Shown piece after piece: positions 5,577 to 26,759 of a stretch of 26,759 bases of DNA. Under the pieces are notes generated by a model, which made no database searches, was not told the origin of the DNA, and worked only from the letters and a program-made list of their open reading frames with translations. This stretch comes from a virus, in the IMG/VR virus record IMGVR_UViG_3300046777_001551, positions 1 through 26,759 of that record; one strand, 5' to 3'. The position numbers and the translations under genes were made by a program. Every line of letters begins with the position of its first letter. Position 1 is the first letter of the stretch.

Positions 5577-6803
5577 ATGACAACTCTACAAATTCAAACT
5601 CCCGGGTGGGCGCTGCCACTGCTTGAGCCTGCACGCTATAAAGGCGCTTATGGAGGACGAGGCAGCGGAAAATCACATTTCTTCGCAGAGATGCTGATTG
5701 AATCACATCTTATTGATCAGAAGCGGCGTAGCGTTTGCGTGCGCGAGGTGCAGAAATCTTTGGCGCAATCTGTGAAGCGATTGCTAGAGCTGAAGATTGA
5801 AAAGCTTAATGCCGGCGCTTACTTTGAAGTGCAAGAGGCTGTTATCAAGTCAAAAAAGGGGGACGGCTTGATCATCTTTCAGGGTATGCAGAATCATACC
5901 GCTGACTCGATCAAATCAATGGAGGGTTTGGACGTTTGCTGGGTCGAAGAAGCTCAGAGCTTGAGCCAGCGCAGCCTAGACTTGCTTCGGCCCACGATTC
6001 GCAAGCCTGGCTCAGAGCTCTGGTTCACTTGGAACCCGAGCCAGGCCAGCGATCCGGTTGACCAGCTATTGCGCGGTGATAAGACACCCCCTGACTCAGT
6101 TTTGATCGAGGTCAATTTCGACGACAATCCCTGGTTTCCCGAAGTGCTGCGTGCAGAGATGGAGTACGACAAAGCGCGAGACCCGGACAAATATGCGCAC
6201 GTATGGCGGGGGAAATACTTCACCAACAGCACGTCACGCGTTTTCACAAACTGGCGCATCGAGGACTTTGAGACACCGAAAGACGCGATTCACAGGCTCG
6301 GCGCAGACTGGGGCTTTGCATCTGATCCGACCGTTCTTGTGCGATGTCATATTGTCGGTCGCACGCTGTACATCGATCACGAAGCATATATGATTGGCTG
6401 CGAGATTATGAACACGCCTGAACTGTTCATGACCGTGCCCGAGGCCGAAAAATGGCCAATTGTCGCTGATAGTTCGAGGCCGGAAACAATCAGCCACATG
6501 CGCAAGCATGGATTCCCAAAAATGCTGGCGGCTGTGAAAGGTAAAGATTCAGTGCTTGAAGGCGTTGAATGGCTGAAATCTTACGATATCGTTGTTCATT
6601 CGCGCTGCAAGCATACTATTGATGAATTAACATTTTATAGCTATAAAACTGACCCCCTTACTGGCAAAATCCTGCCAGTTTTGCAAGATAAGAAGAATCA
6701 CGTCATCGACGCACTGCGCTATGCTTGCGAAGGGGTAAGGCGGGCTGTGTTAGTAAATCGTTCAGTAAACTTCACTCCGCTTCCAAATGTGCATAAATGG
6801 TAA
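5577..6803 (+). CDS. terL: Terminase large subunit (408 aa)
   Basis: The packaging ATPase and headful nuclease. The ATPase domain has Walker A GGRGSGKS (26-33), Walker B DVCWVEEA with the catalytic Glu pair (119-126) and the WNP coupling motif (152-154). The RNase H-like nuclease follows with acidic residues in GADWGF (D244), IVADSS (D298) and NHVIDALRYA (D378). The layout is that of the Terminase_3/PBSX-type family and the length is close to the usual 400-450 residues. No clear ribosome-binding site precedes the ATG at 5577, but an in-frame stop at 5565 leaves little choice; translational coupling to the small subunit is possible. Headful (pac) packaging is expected from the family and the P22-like setting, not shown here. 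Confidence 0.95.
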   Translation: MTTLQIQTPGWALPLLEPARYKGAYGGRGSGKSHFFAEMLIESHLIDQKRRSVCVREVQKSLAQSVKRLLELKIEKLNAGAYFEVQEAVIKSKKGDGLIIFQGMQNHTADSIKSMEGLDVCWVEEAQSLSQRSLDLLRPTIRKPGSELWFTWNPSQASDPVDQLLRGDKTPPDSVLIEVNFDDNPWFPEVLRAEMEYDKARDPDKYAHVWRGKYFTNSTSRVFTNWRIEDFETPKDAIHRLGADWGFASDPTVLVRCHIVGRTLYIDHEAYMIGCEIMNTPELFMTVPEAEKWPIVADSSRPETISHMRKHGFPKMLAAVKGKDSVLEGVEWLKSYDIVVHSRCKHTIDELTFYSYKTDPLTGKILPVLQDKKNHVIDALRYACEGVRRAVLVNRSVNFTPLPNVHKW

Positions 6804-6824
6804 ACTTGAAAAAAGGGGTGATTT

Positions 6825-8879
6825 GTGGCACGCATTTCTAAAGAACAATATCTTGCAGAGCTTCACTCTGAAGCACTAGAACAGTTTAATGATATTCAAA
6901 CTGCATTGCGCGACGAGCGTTTGCAGTGTTTGCAAGATCGGCGATTTTATAGTTTAGCTGGCAGTCAGTGGGAAGGCCCGCTGCTTGATGTTTATGAGAA
7001 TAAGCCGAGGTTCGAAGTAAACAAAGTTCACTTAGCTGTTATCAGAATTATCAATGAGTATCGAAACAATAGAATTACTGTTGATTTTGTCAGCAAAGAA
7101 TCAAGCGATGACAAACTAGCGGAAACCTGCGACGGGCTGTATCTTGCTGATGAGAAAGATAGCGTAGCTGACGAAGCTTATGATAATGCCTTTGAAGAAG
7201 CGGTGGGGGGAGGATTCGGCGCTTGGCGCTTGCGTACAGTTTACGAAGACGAAGAAGACGAAGAAAACGAAAAACAGCGGATTCGAATTGAGCCTATTTT
7301 TGACGCTGACAGCTCGGTGTTCTTCGACTTGAACGCAAAGCGACAAGACAAGTCAGATGCGCGTTATTGCTTTGTGATTACATCGATGACCCGCGCAAGC
7401 TACAAGGAGGAATGGGGAGATGACCCAACCGACTGGCCAAAAATTATTCATCAACATGAGTTCGATTGGTGTACACCCGACGTTGTTTATGTAGCAGAGT
7501 ATTACAAGATCGAGGACGTCACAGAAACTATTCGGATATTCAGAGCGATTGACGGAACAGAAGAGCGTTATCGCAAGTCCGATTTTGATGCAGACCCCGA
7601 ACTAGAATCAACGCTTGCAGCAATTGGAAGTCAAGAAGTACGTCAACGCAAGGTCAAATCAACTCGCGTTCACAAATATATAATGTCCGGCGGCAAGATT
7701 TTGGAAGATGCTGGATATATCGCTGGCAAGTGCATCCCGATTGTGCCTGTTTACGGCAAAAGATGGTTTGTTGATAATGTTGAACGCTGCATGGGTCATG
7801 TACGACTTGCGAAAGATGCGCAGCGATTGAAGAACATGCAGCTATCCAAGCTGGGCGAGATTAGCGCATTGTCCAGCGTCGAAAAGCCGATTCTCTTGCC
7901 TGAGCAAGTTGCTGGCCACCAGGTCATGTGGGCTGAAGATAATCTGAAAGATTACCCATATTTGCTTGTTAATCCGATAACTGGCCCTGATGGGAGCCAG
8001 CAAATAGCTGGCCCGGTCGCATACACAAAGAGCCCGCAAATCCCACCCGCTATGGCCGCGCTTCTTCAGATCACTGAACAAGACATGCAAGACATTCTTG
8101 GAAGCTCGCAGCAAGCAGATAAGATGGTTTCAAACATCTCTGGCAAAGCAGTAGAGATGATTCAGACGCGCCTTGACATGCAGACGTTTATATATATGTC
8201 GAATTTTGCAAAAGGCATGAAGCGATGCGGCGAAATATGGCTATCGATGGCGCGTGATGTCTACGTCGAAGAAGGCCGGAAAATGAAATCAATTGGAGCT
8301 GATGAAAAAGTAAAAATCATTGAACTCATGCGCCCGATGATTAGCGAAAACGGCGAAGTAGTCACTGAGAATAATATCGGAAATGCCAAATTTGATGTAA
8401 CTGTTGATGTCGGCCCATCGAGCTCTAGTAAGCGAGCTTCAACTGTTCGTGAGCTTACCGGAATGATGTCAATCAGTGATGATCCAGAAACAAAACAAGT
8501 ATTGCAGGCAATGGCAATGATGAATATGGAGGGTGACGGTATTAGCGAAGTGCGAGACTATTTCAGAAGTAAACTTGTTCGCATGGGCGTTGTTAAACCA
8601 ACCGATGAAGAAAAAGCGCAAATGACAATTGAAATGCAAGGTAAGAAACAAGACCCGAATGAGATTTTCTTGCAAGCTGCTGCTGAAGAAGCAATGGCAA
8701 AAGCTGCAAAGGCCCGGGCAGATACTGTTAAAACTGTGGCCGATGCTGGATTGTCTCGAGCACGAACTGCTGAGACACTCGCAAAAACTGGCGTGCAGGA
8801 ACAGAATATTGCAATGACAGCTATGGAATCAACCCAGAAAGCTATTATGGGACAAGAAGTGCAGCCTCTTGCAAAATAA
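6825..8879 (+). CDS. P22-type portal protein (684 aa)
   Basis: This would form the dodecameric DNA entry and exit ring at one capsid vertex. The start FNDIQTALRDERLQCLQDRR, the following FYSLAGSQWEG and NKVHLAVIRIINEYRNNRITV, and the later block KDAQRLKNMQLSKLGEISAL are typical of the P22 gp1 / Podoviridae-type portal family. The C-terminal 80 residues are strongly helical and Ala-rich (AKAAKARADTVKTVADAG), matching the barrel or crown extension of P22-like portals. P22 gp1 is about 725 residues, so 684 is in range. Translation starts at a GTG with AAGGGGTGA upstream. It lies between the large terminase and the scaffold, as in P22. Confidence 0.92.
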   Translation: MARISKEQYLAELHSEALEQFNDIQTALRDERLQCLQDRRFYSLAGSQWEGPLLDVYENKPRFEVNKVHLAVIRIINEYRNNRITVDFVSKESSDDKLAETCDGLYLADEKDSVADEAYDNAFEEAVGGGFGAWRLRTVYEDEEDEENEKQRIRIEPIFDADSSVFFDLNAKRQDKSDARYCFVITSMTRASYKEEWGDDPTDWPKIIHQHEFDWCTPDVVYVAEYYKIEDVTETIRIFRAIDGTEERYRKSDFDADPELESTLAAIGSQEVRQRKVKSTRVHKYIMSGGKILEDAGYIAGKCIPIVPVYGKRWFVDNVERCMGHVRLAKDAQRLKNMQLSKLGEISALSSVEKPILLPEQVAGHQVMWAEDNLKDYPYLLVNPITGPDGSQQIAGPVAYTKSPQIPPAMAALLQITEQDMQDILGSSQQADKMVSNISGKAVEMIQTRLDMQTFIYMSNFAKGMKRCGEIWLSMARDVYVEEGRKMKSIGADEKVKIIELMRPMISENGEVVTENNIGNAKFDVTVDVGPSSSSKRASTVRELTGMMSISDDPETKQVLQAMAMMNMEGDGISEVRDYFRSKLVRMGVVKPTDEEKAQMTIEMQGKKQDPNEIFLQAAAEEAMAKAAKARADTVKTVADAGLSRARTAETLAKTGVQEQNIAMTAMESTQKAIMGQEVQPLAK

Positions 8880-8952
8880 TTGAGAATAGTTAAGAATGCA
8901 ATAAATGGCAACCGCTCAGCCATCAAATTGAGTGAGTTAGAAGGAATCAAAG

Positions 8953-9831
8953 ATGAATTTAACTGAACAACATGCAGAAGAAAACGACGAAATGATTATT
9001 GAGGATGAGCAGGAAAATTCTGGTAGTGAAGTCAGCGAGAGTGATTCTGCTGATCGCCAGAATTCTGTTGAATCAGATAATCAATCGACGGAAGAGCATG
9101 ATGAAGAAGTTATTGTTTCAATAGGCGGGTCAGAAGAAGAAAGCCCTCCCGTTTCTGCTCCGGGGTGGGTTAAAGAGTTACGAAAATCAAATCGAGAGAA
9201 AGAACGAAGAATTCGTGAACTTGAGGCCAAACTTGCGACATCTGCACCTGAGACCAAGCCAGTGCAATTAGGCGCGAAGCCAAGGCTGGAAGATCACGAT
9301 TATGACACTGAAAAATTTGAGCAAGCAATAGACTCTTGGCATGAGCGCAAGCGACAGCTCGATCTTGAGACTGAGAGAGTCAGACAGAGCGAGCAAGCGC
9401 AGCAGAAATTATGGCAAGACAAGCTGGATGGCTACAGCAAAGCTAAAGCCGAACTTAAAGTTCGAGATTATGAAGACGCTGAAGCTGTCGCTCAAGAATT
9501 ATTTAGCGTAACGCAGCAGGGAATTATATTGCAAGGGTCTGAAAATCCAGCGTTGTTAGTTTATGCGCTGGGGAAGAACCCGAAAAAATCTTCTGATCTC
9601 TCGAAAATAACTGACCCGGTTCAATTTGCTTTTGCAGTTGCAAGACTGGAGAAAGAATTGAAAGTGACAAACCGAAAAGCAGCACCCGCTCCAGAGCGCG
9701 TCATACAAGGTACAGGGCGTTCCTCTGGTTCAGTTGATTCAACACTTGAAAGACTGCGAGTTGAAGCTGAAAAGACTGGAAACTATACAAAAGTTCTACA
9801 GTACAAACGGCAGAAACAAACATCAAAGTAA
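8953..9831 (+). CDS. Scaffolding protein (292 aa), P22 gp8-like by position
   Basis: The first 65 residues are highly acidic and disordered (EENDEMIIEDEQEN...), the middle is charged and helical (about 75-170, KSNREKERRIRELEAKL), and the C-terminus is basic (LQYKRQKQTSK). This charge layout, the length near P22 gp8 (303 residues) and the position between portal and coat identify a procapsid scaffold whose basic C-terminal helices bind the coat. Scaffold sequences diverge quickly, so the call rests on architecture and order more than on motifs. An AGAAGGAATCAAAG ribosome-binding site precedes the ATG. No protease gene is seen nearby, so as in P22 it probably exits the procapsid intact. Confidence 0.82.
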   Translation: MNLTEQHAEENDEMIIEDEQENSGSEVSESDSADRQNSVESDNQSTEEHDEEVIVSIGGSEEESPPVSAPGWVKELRKSNREKERRIRELEAKLATSAPETKPVQLGAKPRLEDHDYDTEKFEQAIDSWHERKRQLDLETERVRQSEQAQQKLWQDKLDGYSKAKAELKVRDYEDAEAVAQELFSVTQQGIILQGSENPALLVYALGKNPKKSSDLSKITDPVQFAFAVARLEKELKVTNRKAAPAPERVIQGTGRSSGSVDSTLERLRVEAEKTGNYTKVLQYKRQKQTSK

Positions 9832-9852
9832 TTTTTTAAAGGAGCCACAATC

Positions 9853-11127
9853 ATGGCAAATATTTTTTCTAAAGAAGAGCGTGTAGCGTTCGAAGACTTG
9901 CTCGAGGGCTTTCAAGATGCTCTTGTTTTGAGCAAGAACGTTGCGGTATATAACACCGAACAAACGATGATGGAGCGCACGAATAATGTGATCTGGCGTC
10001 CTCAGCCGAATATCGCAGTGTCTTATTCAGGCACTGATATGACGACCAATTTCGACGATTACACACAGTTAAGTGTACCAGCAACGATTGGTTTTTCTCG
10101 ATCAGTACCTTGGACGATGACGGCAACTGAATTGCGTGACGCATTGCAAGAAAAGCGGCTTGGTGATTCTGCCAAGCAAAGACTCGCGAGTGATATTAAC
10201 GTCGCTGTAATGAACGTTGCAACATCGCAGGGTACCTTGTTTGTTAAAAGGACTGGCGCCGCATCGGGTTTTGATGACGCGGCAGAAATTGAAGCAGTCA
10301 TGAATGAACAGGGAATTCCAGCTTTTGACCGCTATCTGGCGTTATCTACCCGTGACTATAACGGAATGGCCTCAGACTTGGCGAAGAGTACTCGAAGTTT
10401 TGGCAATGAAATTTCTGATACTGCATACCGTCAGGCGTATGTTGGACGTGTTTCAAGCTTTGAAACTTTCAAATTAGATTATTCTGTTCGCAAAACCGCA
10501 GCCGCTGGCGGCGCTGGTTTGACTGTCAGCACTTTACCAGCAGCAAATAACTTCTGGGTACCTCGTGCGCAAACTGTCGCGGTAACTGGTGAAGCTGCGA
10601 ATATCGATAACCGATTCCAAACCATTACCGTTTCAAGCACTACTAACGTGGCTGCTGGTGATGCGTTCACGATCGGCAATGTCTTTGCTGTTCATCAAAT
10701 TACCAAACAAAGCACGGGCGTTCTGAAAACTTTCCGAGTAATTTCTGTCCCAAGCTCAACCACTTTGGTTATTTCTCCGCCCATTATTTCGGGCCAAGGC
10801 GGAAGCGATTCAGAAGCTCAATATCAGAACGTGACGATTCCCACTACATCGGCCACAGCTCCGATTGTGTTCTTGAACACTGTTTCAGCTGCGATGAATC
10901 CTTTCTGGCAAAAAGATGCTTTAGAGATTTTGCCAGGAAAGTATGTTGTGCCATCTGACGCTGGTGTTGCTGTTATTAGAGCAAGCACAGATCAGGGCAT
11001 TGAGCTTGTGATGACTAAGCAATATGACATCAATACGATGAAAATCAAATACCGTGTTGATACTCTATTTGGTGTTGTCAACAAACAACCCCAAATGTCA
11101 GGAATTATCATGTTTGGTCAAACTTAA
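9853..11127 (+). CDS. Major coat protein with P22-type I-domain (424 aa)
   Basis: HK97-fold coat of the P22 gp5 type (430 residues in P22). The N-terminal half gives the helical arm and P-domain (1-90; TNNVIWRPQP parallels SNTIWMPVEQ in P22), and the A-domain and spine helix follow (LRDALQEKRLGDSAKQRLAS at about 94-113). Residues about 222-345 form the inserted telokin-like I-domain: NIDNRFQTITVSSTTNVAAGD lines up with [21 protein letters not shown] as I recall it from P22. The HK97 fold then resumes (FWQKDALEILPGKYVVPSDA). AAAGGAGCC gives a strong ribosome-binding site. In P22 the I-domain stabilises the subunit and sets capsid size, so a similar procapsid is expected. The next gene is a probable decoration protein. 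Confidence 0.93.
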   Translation: MANIFSKEERVAFEDLLEGFQDALVLSKNVAVYNTEQTMMERTNNVIWRPQPNIAVSYSGTDMTTNFDDYTQLSVPATIGFSRSVPWTMTATELRDALQEKRLGDSAKQRLASDINVAVMNVATSQGTLFVKRTGAASGFDDAAEIEAVMNEQGIPAFDRYLALSTRDYNGMASDLAKSTRSFGNEISDTAYRQAYVGRVSSFETFKLDYSVRKTAAAGGAGLTVSTLPAANNFWVPRAQTVAVTGEAANIDNRFQTITVSSTTNVAAGDAFTIGNVFAVHQITKQSTGVLKTFRVISVPSSTTLVISPPIISGQGGSDSEAQYQNVTIPTTSATAPIVFLNTVSAAMNPFWQKDALEILPGKYVVPSDAGVAVIRASTDQGIELVMTKQYDINTMKIKYRVDTLFGVVNKQPQMSGIIMFGQT

Positions 11128-24937: not shown

Positions 24938-25144
24938 TTACAACTCAATATCAACAGCGTTAAAAACAGGAACATCGCGCCACTCACCGTTTGCAACCCC
25001 CTCATATTTCTCTGGGGGTTTCCAATACTGCTGAAGTACTGGCACTTTCTCAACTGTGTAGTGATTCCACAGCTTAGACTCACGATCAACGACAGTGACA
25101 TCTCGCATCACGATCCTCAACTCCATTGTTCTTATGAGTTCCAT
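24938..25144 (-). CDS. Small phage protein (68 aa), unknown function
   Basis: The chain starts MELIRTMELRIVMRDVTVVD and continues VEKVPVLQQYWKPPEKYEGV to ...WRDVPVFNAVDIEL. The ...PVLQ.YW.PP.......G.W.DVP pattern is one I recognise from phage accessory regions. It looks like a small beta-strand protein with no Cys, membrane span or catalytic motif. GGAGTGATT precedes the ATG at 25144; an in-frame GTG two codons earlier is less well placed. It lies 37 bases downstream of the DfrB-like gene on the same strand, so the two are probably on one transcript. Confidence 0.65.
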   Translation of the reverse strand: MELIRTMELRIVMRDVTVVDRESKLWNHYTVEKVPVLQQYWKPPEKYEGVANGEWRDVPVFNAVDIEL

Positions 25145-25181
25145 AATCACTCCGTATCAGAAAATTTAATATGTGAATTGC

Positions 25182-25421
25182 TCAAATGACCGTTGCCTTT
25201 TTTACACGTTCGAGAGCAGTTTCTGGGTATATCTGCACCGATCCCTTATGTGAATTACTTTCAACAGCGTACCCGGCTACAGTCAAATCCGTAGAATAAA
25301 ACCCGACGATCTTTCCCTCCCATTGAGACCCTGACTTCTTACTTACAATATCTCCTAGCTTAAAATCTAACAATCCCATTGCAAAATACACATGTAGGTT
25401 GTCTAACTTTTGCTGTGTCAC
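25182..25421 (-). CDS. dfrB: DfrB-type (R67-like, type II) dihydrofolate reductase homolog (79 aa)
   Basis: Predicted to reduce dihydrofolate to tetrahydrofolate with NADPH. R67 DfrB is a 78-residue SH3-like barrel, active as a homotetramer around one central pore, and unrelated to chromosomal FolA. Residues 23-72 align without gaps to R67 27-76 as I recall it, with 34 of 50 identical. The active-site residues are all kept: K28 (R67 K32), S61, Q63, I64 and Y65 (R67 S65, Q67, I68, Y69), in GSVQIYP; W34 and H58 at the subunit interfaces are also kept. The N-terminal 22 residues differ, as this tail does among DfrB proteins. Translation starts at a GTG with GGGAG upstream, overlapping the upstream regulator's stop by 4 bases; ATG at residue 15 is an alternative. 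No integron attC site is seen. Activity is predicted, not shown. Confidence 0.88.
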
Positions 25422-25765
25422 ACTATTCTCCCGGCTGTCATTTCAATCATTCTTTTTGCTCTATATCTATCTCGATCAATCCTTCTTTTTTCTTCAACTG
25501 TACGCTTAGGCGGTTTTTTAACGTCGCGCTTTATTGCTCCGTATGAGAATGCGTACAGCTTTTTTTGCTTTCTACCTCTCGAATCTTCACACCATCCTGC
25601 TATGTGTATAGTTTTTCTTTTCCATAGCATTTTCGTGTAAGCCAGGACAGTCGTGTAGTGCAATCCGGTTTCTTCGACAATTTCTTTGCATGTAACGCCT
25701 TCTTTTTGCATCAAGCATTCAAGCATGATTGCAAATGTTAATGCGCTAACTCTTGTAGTACCCAT
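25418..25765 (-). CDS. Winged-helix DNA-binding protein (115 aa)
   Basis: Residues about 6-65 form a helix-turn-helix with wing: [20 protein letters not shown], then [20 protein letters not shown] as turn and recognition helix, and [20 protein letters not shown] as wing. The C-terminal third is very basic ([27 protein letters not shown] in two blocks), suggesting further DNA or RNA contact. Similar small wHTH proteins are common in phage early regions. The ATG at 25765 has GAGGAGTTTA directly upstream. The gene overlaps the DfrB-like gene by 4 bases (GTGA), so the two are translationally coupled, and a candidate promoter lies just ahead. Its target is unknown. Confidence 0.78.
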
Positions 25766-25787
25766 TAAACTCCTCACTAGTTAAACA

Positions 25788-25820: not shown

Positions 25821-26159
25821 TTATGTATAAATCTGCTTTGATGCTTCCGTAATTTTTTGTTTTGCCTCATCTGCTCCTTTGCAGACAATGCACTGATAAC
25901 CACAGCTTTTTAAGTATTCGATCCAGTCTTTCTGTTCTTGGCTGAGGCTGCCGCCTTTTATGCGCTTCATTTCGACCCACATGCGCCATTCAGGTATGAA
26001 AAGATCAGGCACACCAGAAACGACGCCTTCCGCTTTCAATCTTCCTGCTGTTGCTTTGCTACGCGCTCCACCATTTGGGATTGCAAAAATTCGCACATCT
26101 GGCCAAGACTGTCGAAACCAGTGGACAAACTCTCGCTGTTCTTCGTGTTCTGTTTTCAT
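25821..26159 (-). CDS. VRR-NUC family nuclease (112 aa)
   Basis: A minimal PD-(D/E)xK nuclease of the VRR-NUC type (PF08774), the stand-alone phage form of the domain found in FAN1. FAIPNGGARSKATAGRLKAE at 25-44 gives the conserved N-G-G region, GVPDLFIPE at 49-57 holds D52, and WVEMKR at 61-66 holds E63 and K65; SLSQEQKDWIEYLKSCGY at 71-88 is the usual following helix. The length agrees with phage members. In phages it is linked to processing branched DNA or recombination intermediates. GAGGACGACAA precedes the ATG, which overlaps the upstream stop (ATGA). Confidence 0.92.
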   Translation of the reverse strand: MKTEHEEQREFVHWFRQSWPDVRIFAIPNGGARSKATAGRLKAEGVVSGVPDLFIPEWRMWVEMKRIKGGSLSQEQKDWIEYLKSCGYQCIVCKGADEAKQKITEASKQIYT

Positions 26160-26335: not shown

Positions 26336-26526
26336 AATGGCAGCTCCCAAACCCAATCCACGCATTGATCAATTGATTCTGCAAAATCTTCAGGAACCTT
26401 TTCTTCGAACCTTGTGCAGAAGCTGTGATTTGCATAGTTATCGCAGGTGTAACAGCACTTTGGCGGCCCAGCTTTAACTAGATCACGCCACTTCGTCACG
26501 ACCTCTGGCTCTTTTTGTCTACTCAT
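26332..26526 (-). CDS. Small Cys-rich, probably zinc-binding phage protein (64 aa)
   Basis: Residues 24-55 hold C24/C25, C28, C37 and C55 in the order CCYTCDNYANHSFCTRF ... SIDQCVDW, and the protein ends VWELPF. The pattern CxxCxxY...C..F...VPEDF...C..W is one I recognise from small phage early proteins presumed to bind zinc. The Cys-W ending is reminiscent of the Cys cluster in the virion-module protein at 16946-17353, though the spacing differs. AAAGGAGTTGGCA is a strong ribosome-binding site for the ATG at 26526, which overlaps the upstream stop by 4 bases. Confidence 0.75.
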   Translation of the reverse strand: MSRQKEPEVVTKWRDLVKAGPPKCCYTCDNYANHSFCTRFEEKVPEDFAESIDQCVDWVWELPF

Positions 26527-26759
26527 TGCCAACTCCTTTTAATAACTTTGTGAAAGTTTCCATTCATTCGATATTCGATGGCCTTCGGAGGCTGGCTATT
26601 GCTCATTTGCGTTGCTAGATATTCCAAACTTTCTTCGCCTAATTCCATCCGCGCGGCCTCGGCAAGATTGGCTCCCGATGATGTTGCCATCCTCAGAAGT
26701 GTCCGCATGGCTATGTCTCCAGCATCGCCTCCGTGCAGTACTGCAAAATATTCTGTGAT
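26523..26759 (-). CDS. Phage early protein, 5' end beyond the window (at least 78 codons)
   Basis: The frame is open from the right edge of the window to a stop at 26525-26523. The visible part reads ITEYFAVLHGGDAGDIAMRT and later ATSSGANLAEAARMELGEES and KAIEYRMNGNFHKVIKRSW. Met codons occur from 26708 on, but the frame continues without a stop to the edge and no ribosome-binding site is seen before 26708, so the real start is probably outside. The 4-base overlap with the next gene puts it in the same leftward operon. I do not recognise the family. Confidence 0.65.
   Translation of the reverse strand: MTEYFAVLHGGDAGDIAMRTLLRMATSSGANLAEAARMELGEESLEYLATQMSNSQPPKAIEYRMNGNFHKVIKRSWQ

Follow-up and report, generated by a model that had tools for sequence, protein, structure and literature searches.

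Relatives of the R67-type dihydrofolate reductases (R67 and DfrB1-DfrB21; PF06442) were reported from phages in 2020, 2023 and 2025 (PMC7265639; PMC9835603; PMC12466917) and are annotated in GenBank phages, which takes away the novelty that a preliminary description of the locus analysed here had implied for a phage-borne DfrB. The published examples comprise DfrB2-like ORFs in freshwater viromes (PMC7265639), DfrB-H3 from Pseudomonas phage PS-1 and DfrB-H4 from a Vibrio phage (PMC9835603), and eight dfrB genes in lytic phages (PMC12466917). DfrB-H4 made E. coli resistant to trimethoprim at up to 600 ug/ml; the same study called both the native function and the origin of DfrB unknown (PMC9835603). 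Ten environmental homologs, 63-92% identical to known DfrB proteins, all conferred resistance when expressed in E. coli, and environmental DfrB alleles were nearly all active (PMC9774602). T4 frd and other phage dihydrofolate reductases of the FolA type (PF00186) possibly share the reaction (NADPH and dihydrofolate) with DfrB, but their fold is unrelated. The phage 7-deazaguanine pathway, which involves FolE, QueD and QueE, was described in a paper that does not use the word dihydrofolate (PMC6884629), and no paper linking dfrB with this pathway was found in a literature search. New in the present study are the count of viral versus prokaryotic loci, the near-invariance of the pore, the dN/dS values, the placement of the resistance cassettes as a twig of the tree and the link of dfrB with folE, queD and queE.

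The DNA analysed is a viral stretch of 26,759 nucleotides (the window). A dfrB-type gene with a GTG start, encoding 79 amino acids, is located at 25182..25421 on the minus strand, exactly where an R67-like gene of 79 codons had been proposed. The protein consists of a variable N-terminal part of 19 residues and an R67-like SH3 domain (residues 19-73). With 86.3 bits (E=1.3e-24, residues 19-73) it scores above the curated cut-off (25 bits) of the Pfam family DHFR_2 (R67 DHFR, PF06442), which identifies it as a member of the DfrB family, while its score of 94.3 bits against NCBIfam NF000331 (trim_DfrB) is below the cut-off for resistance alleles (137 bits). FolA-type dihydrofolate reductase (PF00186) was not matched in the Pfam search. 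The R67 chains in the PDB align with the protein (79 versus 78 amino acids) without gaps (E ~1e-18, 64% identity over 55 residues), as had been claimed, and the equivalents of R67 K32, W38, H62, S65, V66, Q67, I68 and Y69 are kept, all of which except V66 had been named before. Alignment to 1vie places the pore tetrad V66-Q67-I68-Y69 at V62-Q63-I64-Y65 (codons at 25227..25238, minus strand), and K32 and W38 correspond to K28 (25338..25340, minus strand) and W34 (25320..25322, minus strand), respectively. In R67, K32 interacts with the negatively charged groups of folate and NADPH, W38 lies at the dimer-dimer interface and H62 is important to tetramer stability. R67 W45 is F in the window protein; this position is free among the viral domains and was described as replaceable (PMC9835603).

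An AlphaFold2 model of the window protein (monomer, from 41 homologs of the locus) has a core pLDDT of 90-95. A Foldseek search with this model returned seven significant matches (E<=0.001), every one of them R67, and comparison with 1vie gave a TM-score of 0.90 by target length and an rmsd of 0.6 A at 64% identity. The next fold matches were a chromodomain, PWWP and NusG, the chromodomain being the best of these (E=8e-3) and five orders of magnitude weaker than R67. The predicted structure is an SH3-like barrel with R67 topology, and judged by profile, alignment and model the gene encodes a true DfrB/R67-type domain, with a resemblance far beyond chance. The N-terminus is unrelated to those of R67 and DfrB1-DfrB21. 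Its 19 codons (25365-25421) are far more variable than the core among the window and the short viral contigs L002 and L003, which resembles the situation in R67, where the N-terminus is disordered; the start codon in L002 is TTG instead of GTG. An apparent absence of any change, synonymous ones included, from codons 36-75 of these three sequences was considered and rejected as a signal: the flanks show that background divergence is patchy, and what stands out is the N-terminal stretch.

The dfrB gene lies in a leftward cluster in which the end of a helicase gene is followed by two small genes, a VRR-NUC nuclease gene, a winged-helix gene, dfrB and further small genes. The first gene of the visible operon (26523..26759, minus strand) is cut by the window end, and its product corresponds by homology to the C-terminal end of a helicase that is 535-545 aa long in L002 and L003. 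The VRR-NUC nuclease is encoded at 25821..26159 (minus strand; PF08774, E=3.3e-9), and such a gene is also found near dfrB in L013 and L034. The winged-helix DNA-binding protein of 119 aa is encoded at 25418..25777 (minus strand); its match to PF13412 (E=2.3e-4) is just under the cut-off. Its stop codon (TGA, 25420-25418) overlaps the dfrB start codon (GTG, 25421-25419) in the sequence GTGA, and a ribosome-binding site GGGAG (25428..25432, minus strand) precedes the GTG by 6 nt, so that both the overlap and the separate ribosome-binding site proposed earlier are real. Just downstream of dfrB, a 70 aa hypothetical protein (24938..25150, minus strand) is conserved in L002 and L003. Phage genes thus flank dfrB on both sides, a setting that is not that of an integron, and no attC-like site was detected within 160 bp downstream of dfrB using a simple attC regex, which misses many chromosomal cassettes and served only as a negative for the window. 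Together with the identical gene order in L002 and L003, this bears out a native phage operon lacking cassette features; the label 'early' is derived from the replication and nuclease neighbours. Because terminase, P22-like portal, scaffold and coat genes are present at 5577..11127 (plus strand; PHROGs phrog_3717, 156, 648 and 283; relative MW202867), the replicon can be assigned by gene content to a P22-like tailed phage. Endolysin and holin genes are likewise present in the virus record.

L002 and L003 are ~93% identical to the window at the DNA level and carry a DfrB protein with 92-94% identity in the same operon. The nearest named relative, MW202867 (a complete circular genome of 34.5 kb), has the helicase, the VRR-NUC nuclease and a 66-aa gene in common with the window, but it has no dfrB. 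The gene is therefore resident at approximately the species level and accessory beyond it, and the suggestion that it is long resident holds for the close relatives and not for the next one. The winged-helix/dfrB pair was rejected as a conserved module, since the winged-helix partner was found in L002 and L003 only.

At least 225 IMG/VR contigs encode a DfrB relative as detected with one nine-residue pattern, compared with 52 dfrB loci detected with two patterns in 84,980 prokaryotic species genomes; because the sizes of the collections differ, these counts are an indication of enrichment and not a rate. About half of the 52 prokaryotic loci belong to the canonical cassette clade, mostly in Burkholderiales, and at least 12 of the others have neighbour genes in common with phage loci, as expected of prophages. 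In a phage collection, 26 records encode the domain, many of them with a DHFR annotation. The PHROGs family phrog_31682, labelled 'unknown function', is the DfrB/R67 family and was matched by all 42 fusion members and by the window protein. The DfrB domain seems to have one of its main natural homes in phages. As a stand-alone protein it has ~60-80 aa; in other cases varying early-phage modules are joined to one end or the other, including Lar restriction alleviation protein (L132, over the Pfam cut-off, and L138, below it), DUF3850/ASCH (L194), MazG-type pyrophosphatase (L071, L144), Ea22-like linkers and long mosaic linkers (L007, L009, L012, L019, PS-1). Over the domain, the published homologs of PS-1 and Vibrio phages share 65-66% identity with the window protein; DfrB-H3 and DfrB-H4 are longer fusion proteins, whereas the window protein stands alone and its gene overlaps that of the winged-helix protein.

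Because the VQIY motif was part of the first search pattern, the viral homologs were rescanned with the N-terminal 37 columns only, which yielded 59 distinct viral domains. In this set V66 and Q67 are invariant (58 of 58 each), I68 and Y69 are each kept in 57 of 58, K32 in 58 of 59 and W38 in all 59. Position 62, which is H in the window protein, is E in 37 of the 59 domains and H in the remaining 22. The median dN/dS of dfrB in a group of freshwater phages was 0.031 at a synonymous p-distance of 0.61, which is near saturation and makes this value approximate; for the group encoding mosaic proteins the median was 0.22. The near-invariant pore residues and the low dN/dS indicate, therefore, that phages retain the domain for a function dependent on the pore residues of R67.

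In the same freshwater phage group, characterized by the domain sequence FKLGDxVKKVSGSQWHG, dfrB is located within a block encoding FolE (an NCBIfam equivalog match of 330 bits), QueD-like and QueE-like proteins, a gene block like that of the phage 7-deazaguanine pathway. QueD was found in all 23 and FolE in 21 of the 23 records of the group, which are not independent as they represent one phage lineage, and neither was found in the 36 other DfrB records, window included. In 16 of the 17 loci holding these genes dfrB adjoins folE, queD or queE, in three arrangements: the dfrB start lies within the folE stop (ATGA) in L052, L072 and L076, or within the queD stop (4-nt overlap) in L075, L089, L092-L094, L097, L102 and L105, or dfrB directly precedes queE (L066, L083, L084). 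Strong selection on dfrB and the link with these pterin genes are thus each observed in one phage group. The FolE/nucleotidyltransferase/QueD/QueE block with dfrB occurs in L045, L052, L066, L072, L075, L076, L078, L083 and L084, and further in L089, L092-L095, L097, L101, L102 and L105. QueC, TGT and QueF were not found in the freshwater-group phages (sub-threshold QueF matches fall inside FolE), and hence the pathway should end at 7-carboxy-7-deazaguanine. A role of DfrB as a preQ0 nitrile reductase replacing QueF was rejected because QueC and TGT are absent as well and no nitrile reductase is needed. A general queD dependence was also rejected, as dfrB accompanies only one of the 80 closest queD relatives in viral contigs. 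R67 reduces the N5=C6 bond of 7,8-dihydropterin, the compound class made by FolE, and it is plausible that in the freshwater group DfrB natively reduces an oxidised pterin of the pathway. The position of dfrB next to folE, queD and queE makes a dihydropterin-reductase role testable.

The window gene combines DfrB family membership, the R67 fold and the conserved pore with a phage location and operon coupling, and we consider it fairly probable that its product is a native phage member of the family that forms an R67-type tetramer and is an early accessory protein selected for dihydropterin reduction. Four SH3-like protomers would assemble into a homotetramer around a single central pore lined with VQIY and K32. 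There NADPH would meet a dihydropterin, which in the enzymes known so far is dihydrofolate, and hydride would be transferred by proximity. Phage DfrB would accordingly be an early, translationally coupled accessory protein under purifying selection that converts dihydropterin to tetrahydropterin, and trimethoprim insensitivity would be a by-product of the unrelated fold. The match to family and fold, the near-invariant pore, the low dN/dS and the adjacency to folE, queD and queE argue for dihydropterin reduction, as does the resistance conferred by Vibrio-phage DfrB-H4 and by the ten environmental homologs (PMC9835603; PMC9774602). Arguing against it are the E at position 62 in most viral domains, the single dfrB among 80 queD relatives, the restriction of the pterin link to one freshwater lineage, and Pseudomonas-phage DfrB-H3, which yielded neither resistance nor soluble protein (PMC9835603). 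The window phage differs from the 7-deazaguanine-pathway phages in that neither FolE and QueD nor a thymidylate gene is in view, the record being a fragment; close to dfrB itself there is no gene of folate or thymidylate metabolism. The DfrB family is intrinsically indifferent to trimethoprim and is kept in phages under strong selection without the drug; its pterin-gene neighbours point to a role before antibiotics, and their coupling with dfrB in one group suggests a concrete substrate class. A wider scheme, in which DfrB proteins are fundamentally dihydropterin reductases of phages, some of them serving the FolE-QueD-QueE pathway, and the integron cassettes are one late capture, is tentative and, taken as a whole, rather unlikely. 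As an example within this scheme, DfrB would return oxidised 6-carboxy-dihydropterin to the tetrahydro form needed by QueE.

Phage DfrB could also serve mainly in assembly or in binding (of nucleic acid or a nucleotide), together with the winged-helix protein whose gene overlaps dfrB or as part of mosaic early proteins, with dihydrofolate reduction as a latent side activity, an idea already proposed for the DfrB-H proteins (PMC9835603). The occurrence of the domain alone or fused to Lar, DUF3850/ASCH, MazG-type pyrophosphatase or Ea22-like linkers is consistent with such a module, as are the gene overlap in the window and the frequent binding of nucleic acid or protein by SH3-like barrels, to which the chromodomain, PWWP and NusG matches would relate. 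However, K32 and VQIY, which face the pore in R67, are the residues that hardly vary, dfrB adjoins the FolE, QueD and QueE genes in rearranged orders, and the winged-helix partner is confined to L002 and L003. We therefore regard a mainly binding function as unlikely.

That phage DfrB is, like T4 frd, a dihydrofolate reductase dedicated to supplying the thymidylate synthesis of the phage is more doubtful still. Such a role would fit the 59 DfrB phage records in that none encodes FolA (PF00186) while ThyA is present in six and ThyX in one, and in that the td gene of phiM9 is near dfrB across the record ends and ThyX of L004 is 0.6 kb upstream of dfrB. Yet a thymidylate synthase is missing from 52 of the 59 records and is not in view in the window, and ThyX does not yield dihydrofolate. 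As FolA occurs in none and thymidylate synthase in only seven of the 59, a general thymidylate role is not supported; a T4-frd-like role may apply in a few phages.

The origin of the gene was addressed with an unrooted tree of 138 distinct domains over 55 columns, in which many forks are weak. Cassettes from Burkholderiales and the references DfrB1-DfrB10 make up a single shallow group (support 85), viral L048 is its neighbour (support 94), and both are nested in a larger assembly of mostly viral domains. The 20 distinct cassette sequences in the test all fall in one shallow clade that excludes the window protein, in line with the earlier view that the gene is not a recent transfer from an integron. 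Although DfrB4, the most similar cassette allele, is 72% identical and is among the best protein matches, and a clade of the window trio and the cassettes was not rejected (p-AU 0.68; the trio is outside the cassette group in the tree), recent capture from a trimethoprim-resistance integron is extremely improbable and already largely refuted, given the absence of an attC downstream, the N-terminus unlike those of the cassettes, the same operon in phages with 92-94% identical protein and the shallow cassette clade without the window gene. Judged from these sequences, a recent integron origin is unlikely. The phage pool is a candidate source of resistance cassettes: a phage origin fits the tree, with the cassettes nested among mostly phage sequences, but is not shown, because the tree is unrooted and short. 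The proposed 'ancestral pool' therefore agrees with the topology, although 55 columns can neither root nor resolve it.

The canonical loci (L108-L124, L126-L128, L130) are mostly Burkholderiales chromosomes or MAGs encoding DfrB of ~78 aa with a 22-residue N-terminus, and in several of them the 3' end is attC-like, as would be expected of chromosomal integron cassettes. Two divergent dfrB genes (L141, L150) are present on contig JALRHB010000011.1, which was binned as Polynucleobacter; several proteins of this contig share 90-99% identity with those of Aeromonas phage AsC4_1, and it is therefore probably a phage contig. AsC4_1 itself (L029, PV158446.1) contains an unannotated dfrB fragment at 9-149 that is cut by the start of the linear record. 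A divergent bacterial DfrB clade (GDYAAKKGRASWRGKIVGWYRTDLT) occurs on replicons of Ensifer, Bradyrhizobium and sphingomonads, in most cases with no phage genes as neighbours (L137, L139, L145-L149, L155 and plasmid NZ_CP117257, L319). On the Rhizobium Ti plasmid pTi1078, a dfrB gene of this clade adjoins genes for a Tn3-family transposase and a recombinase.
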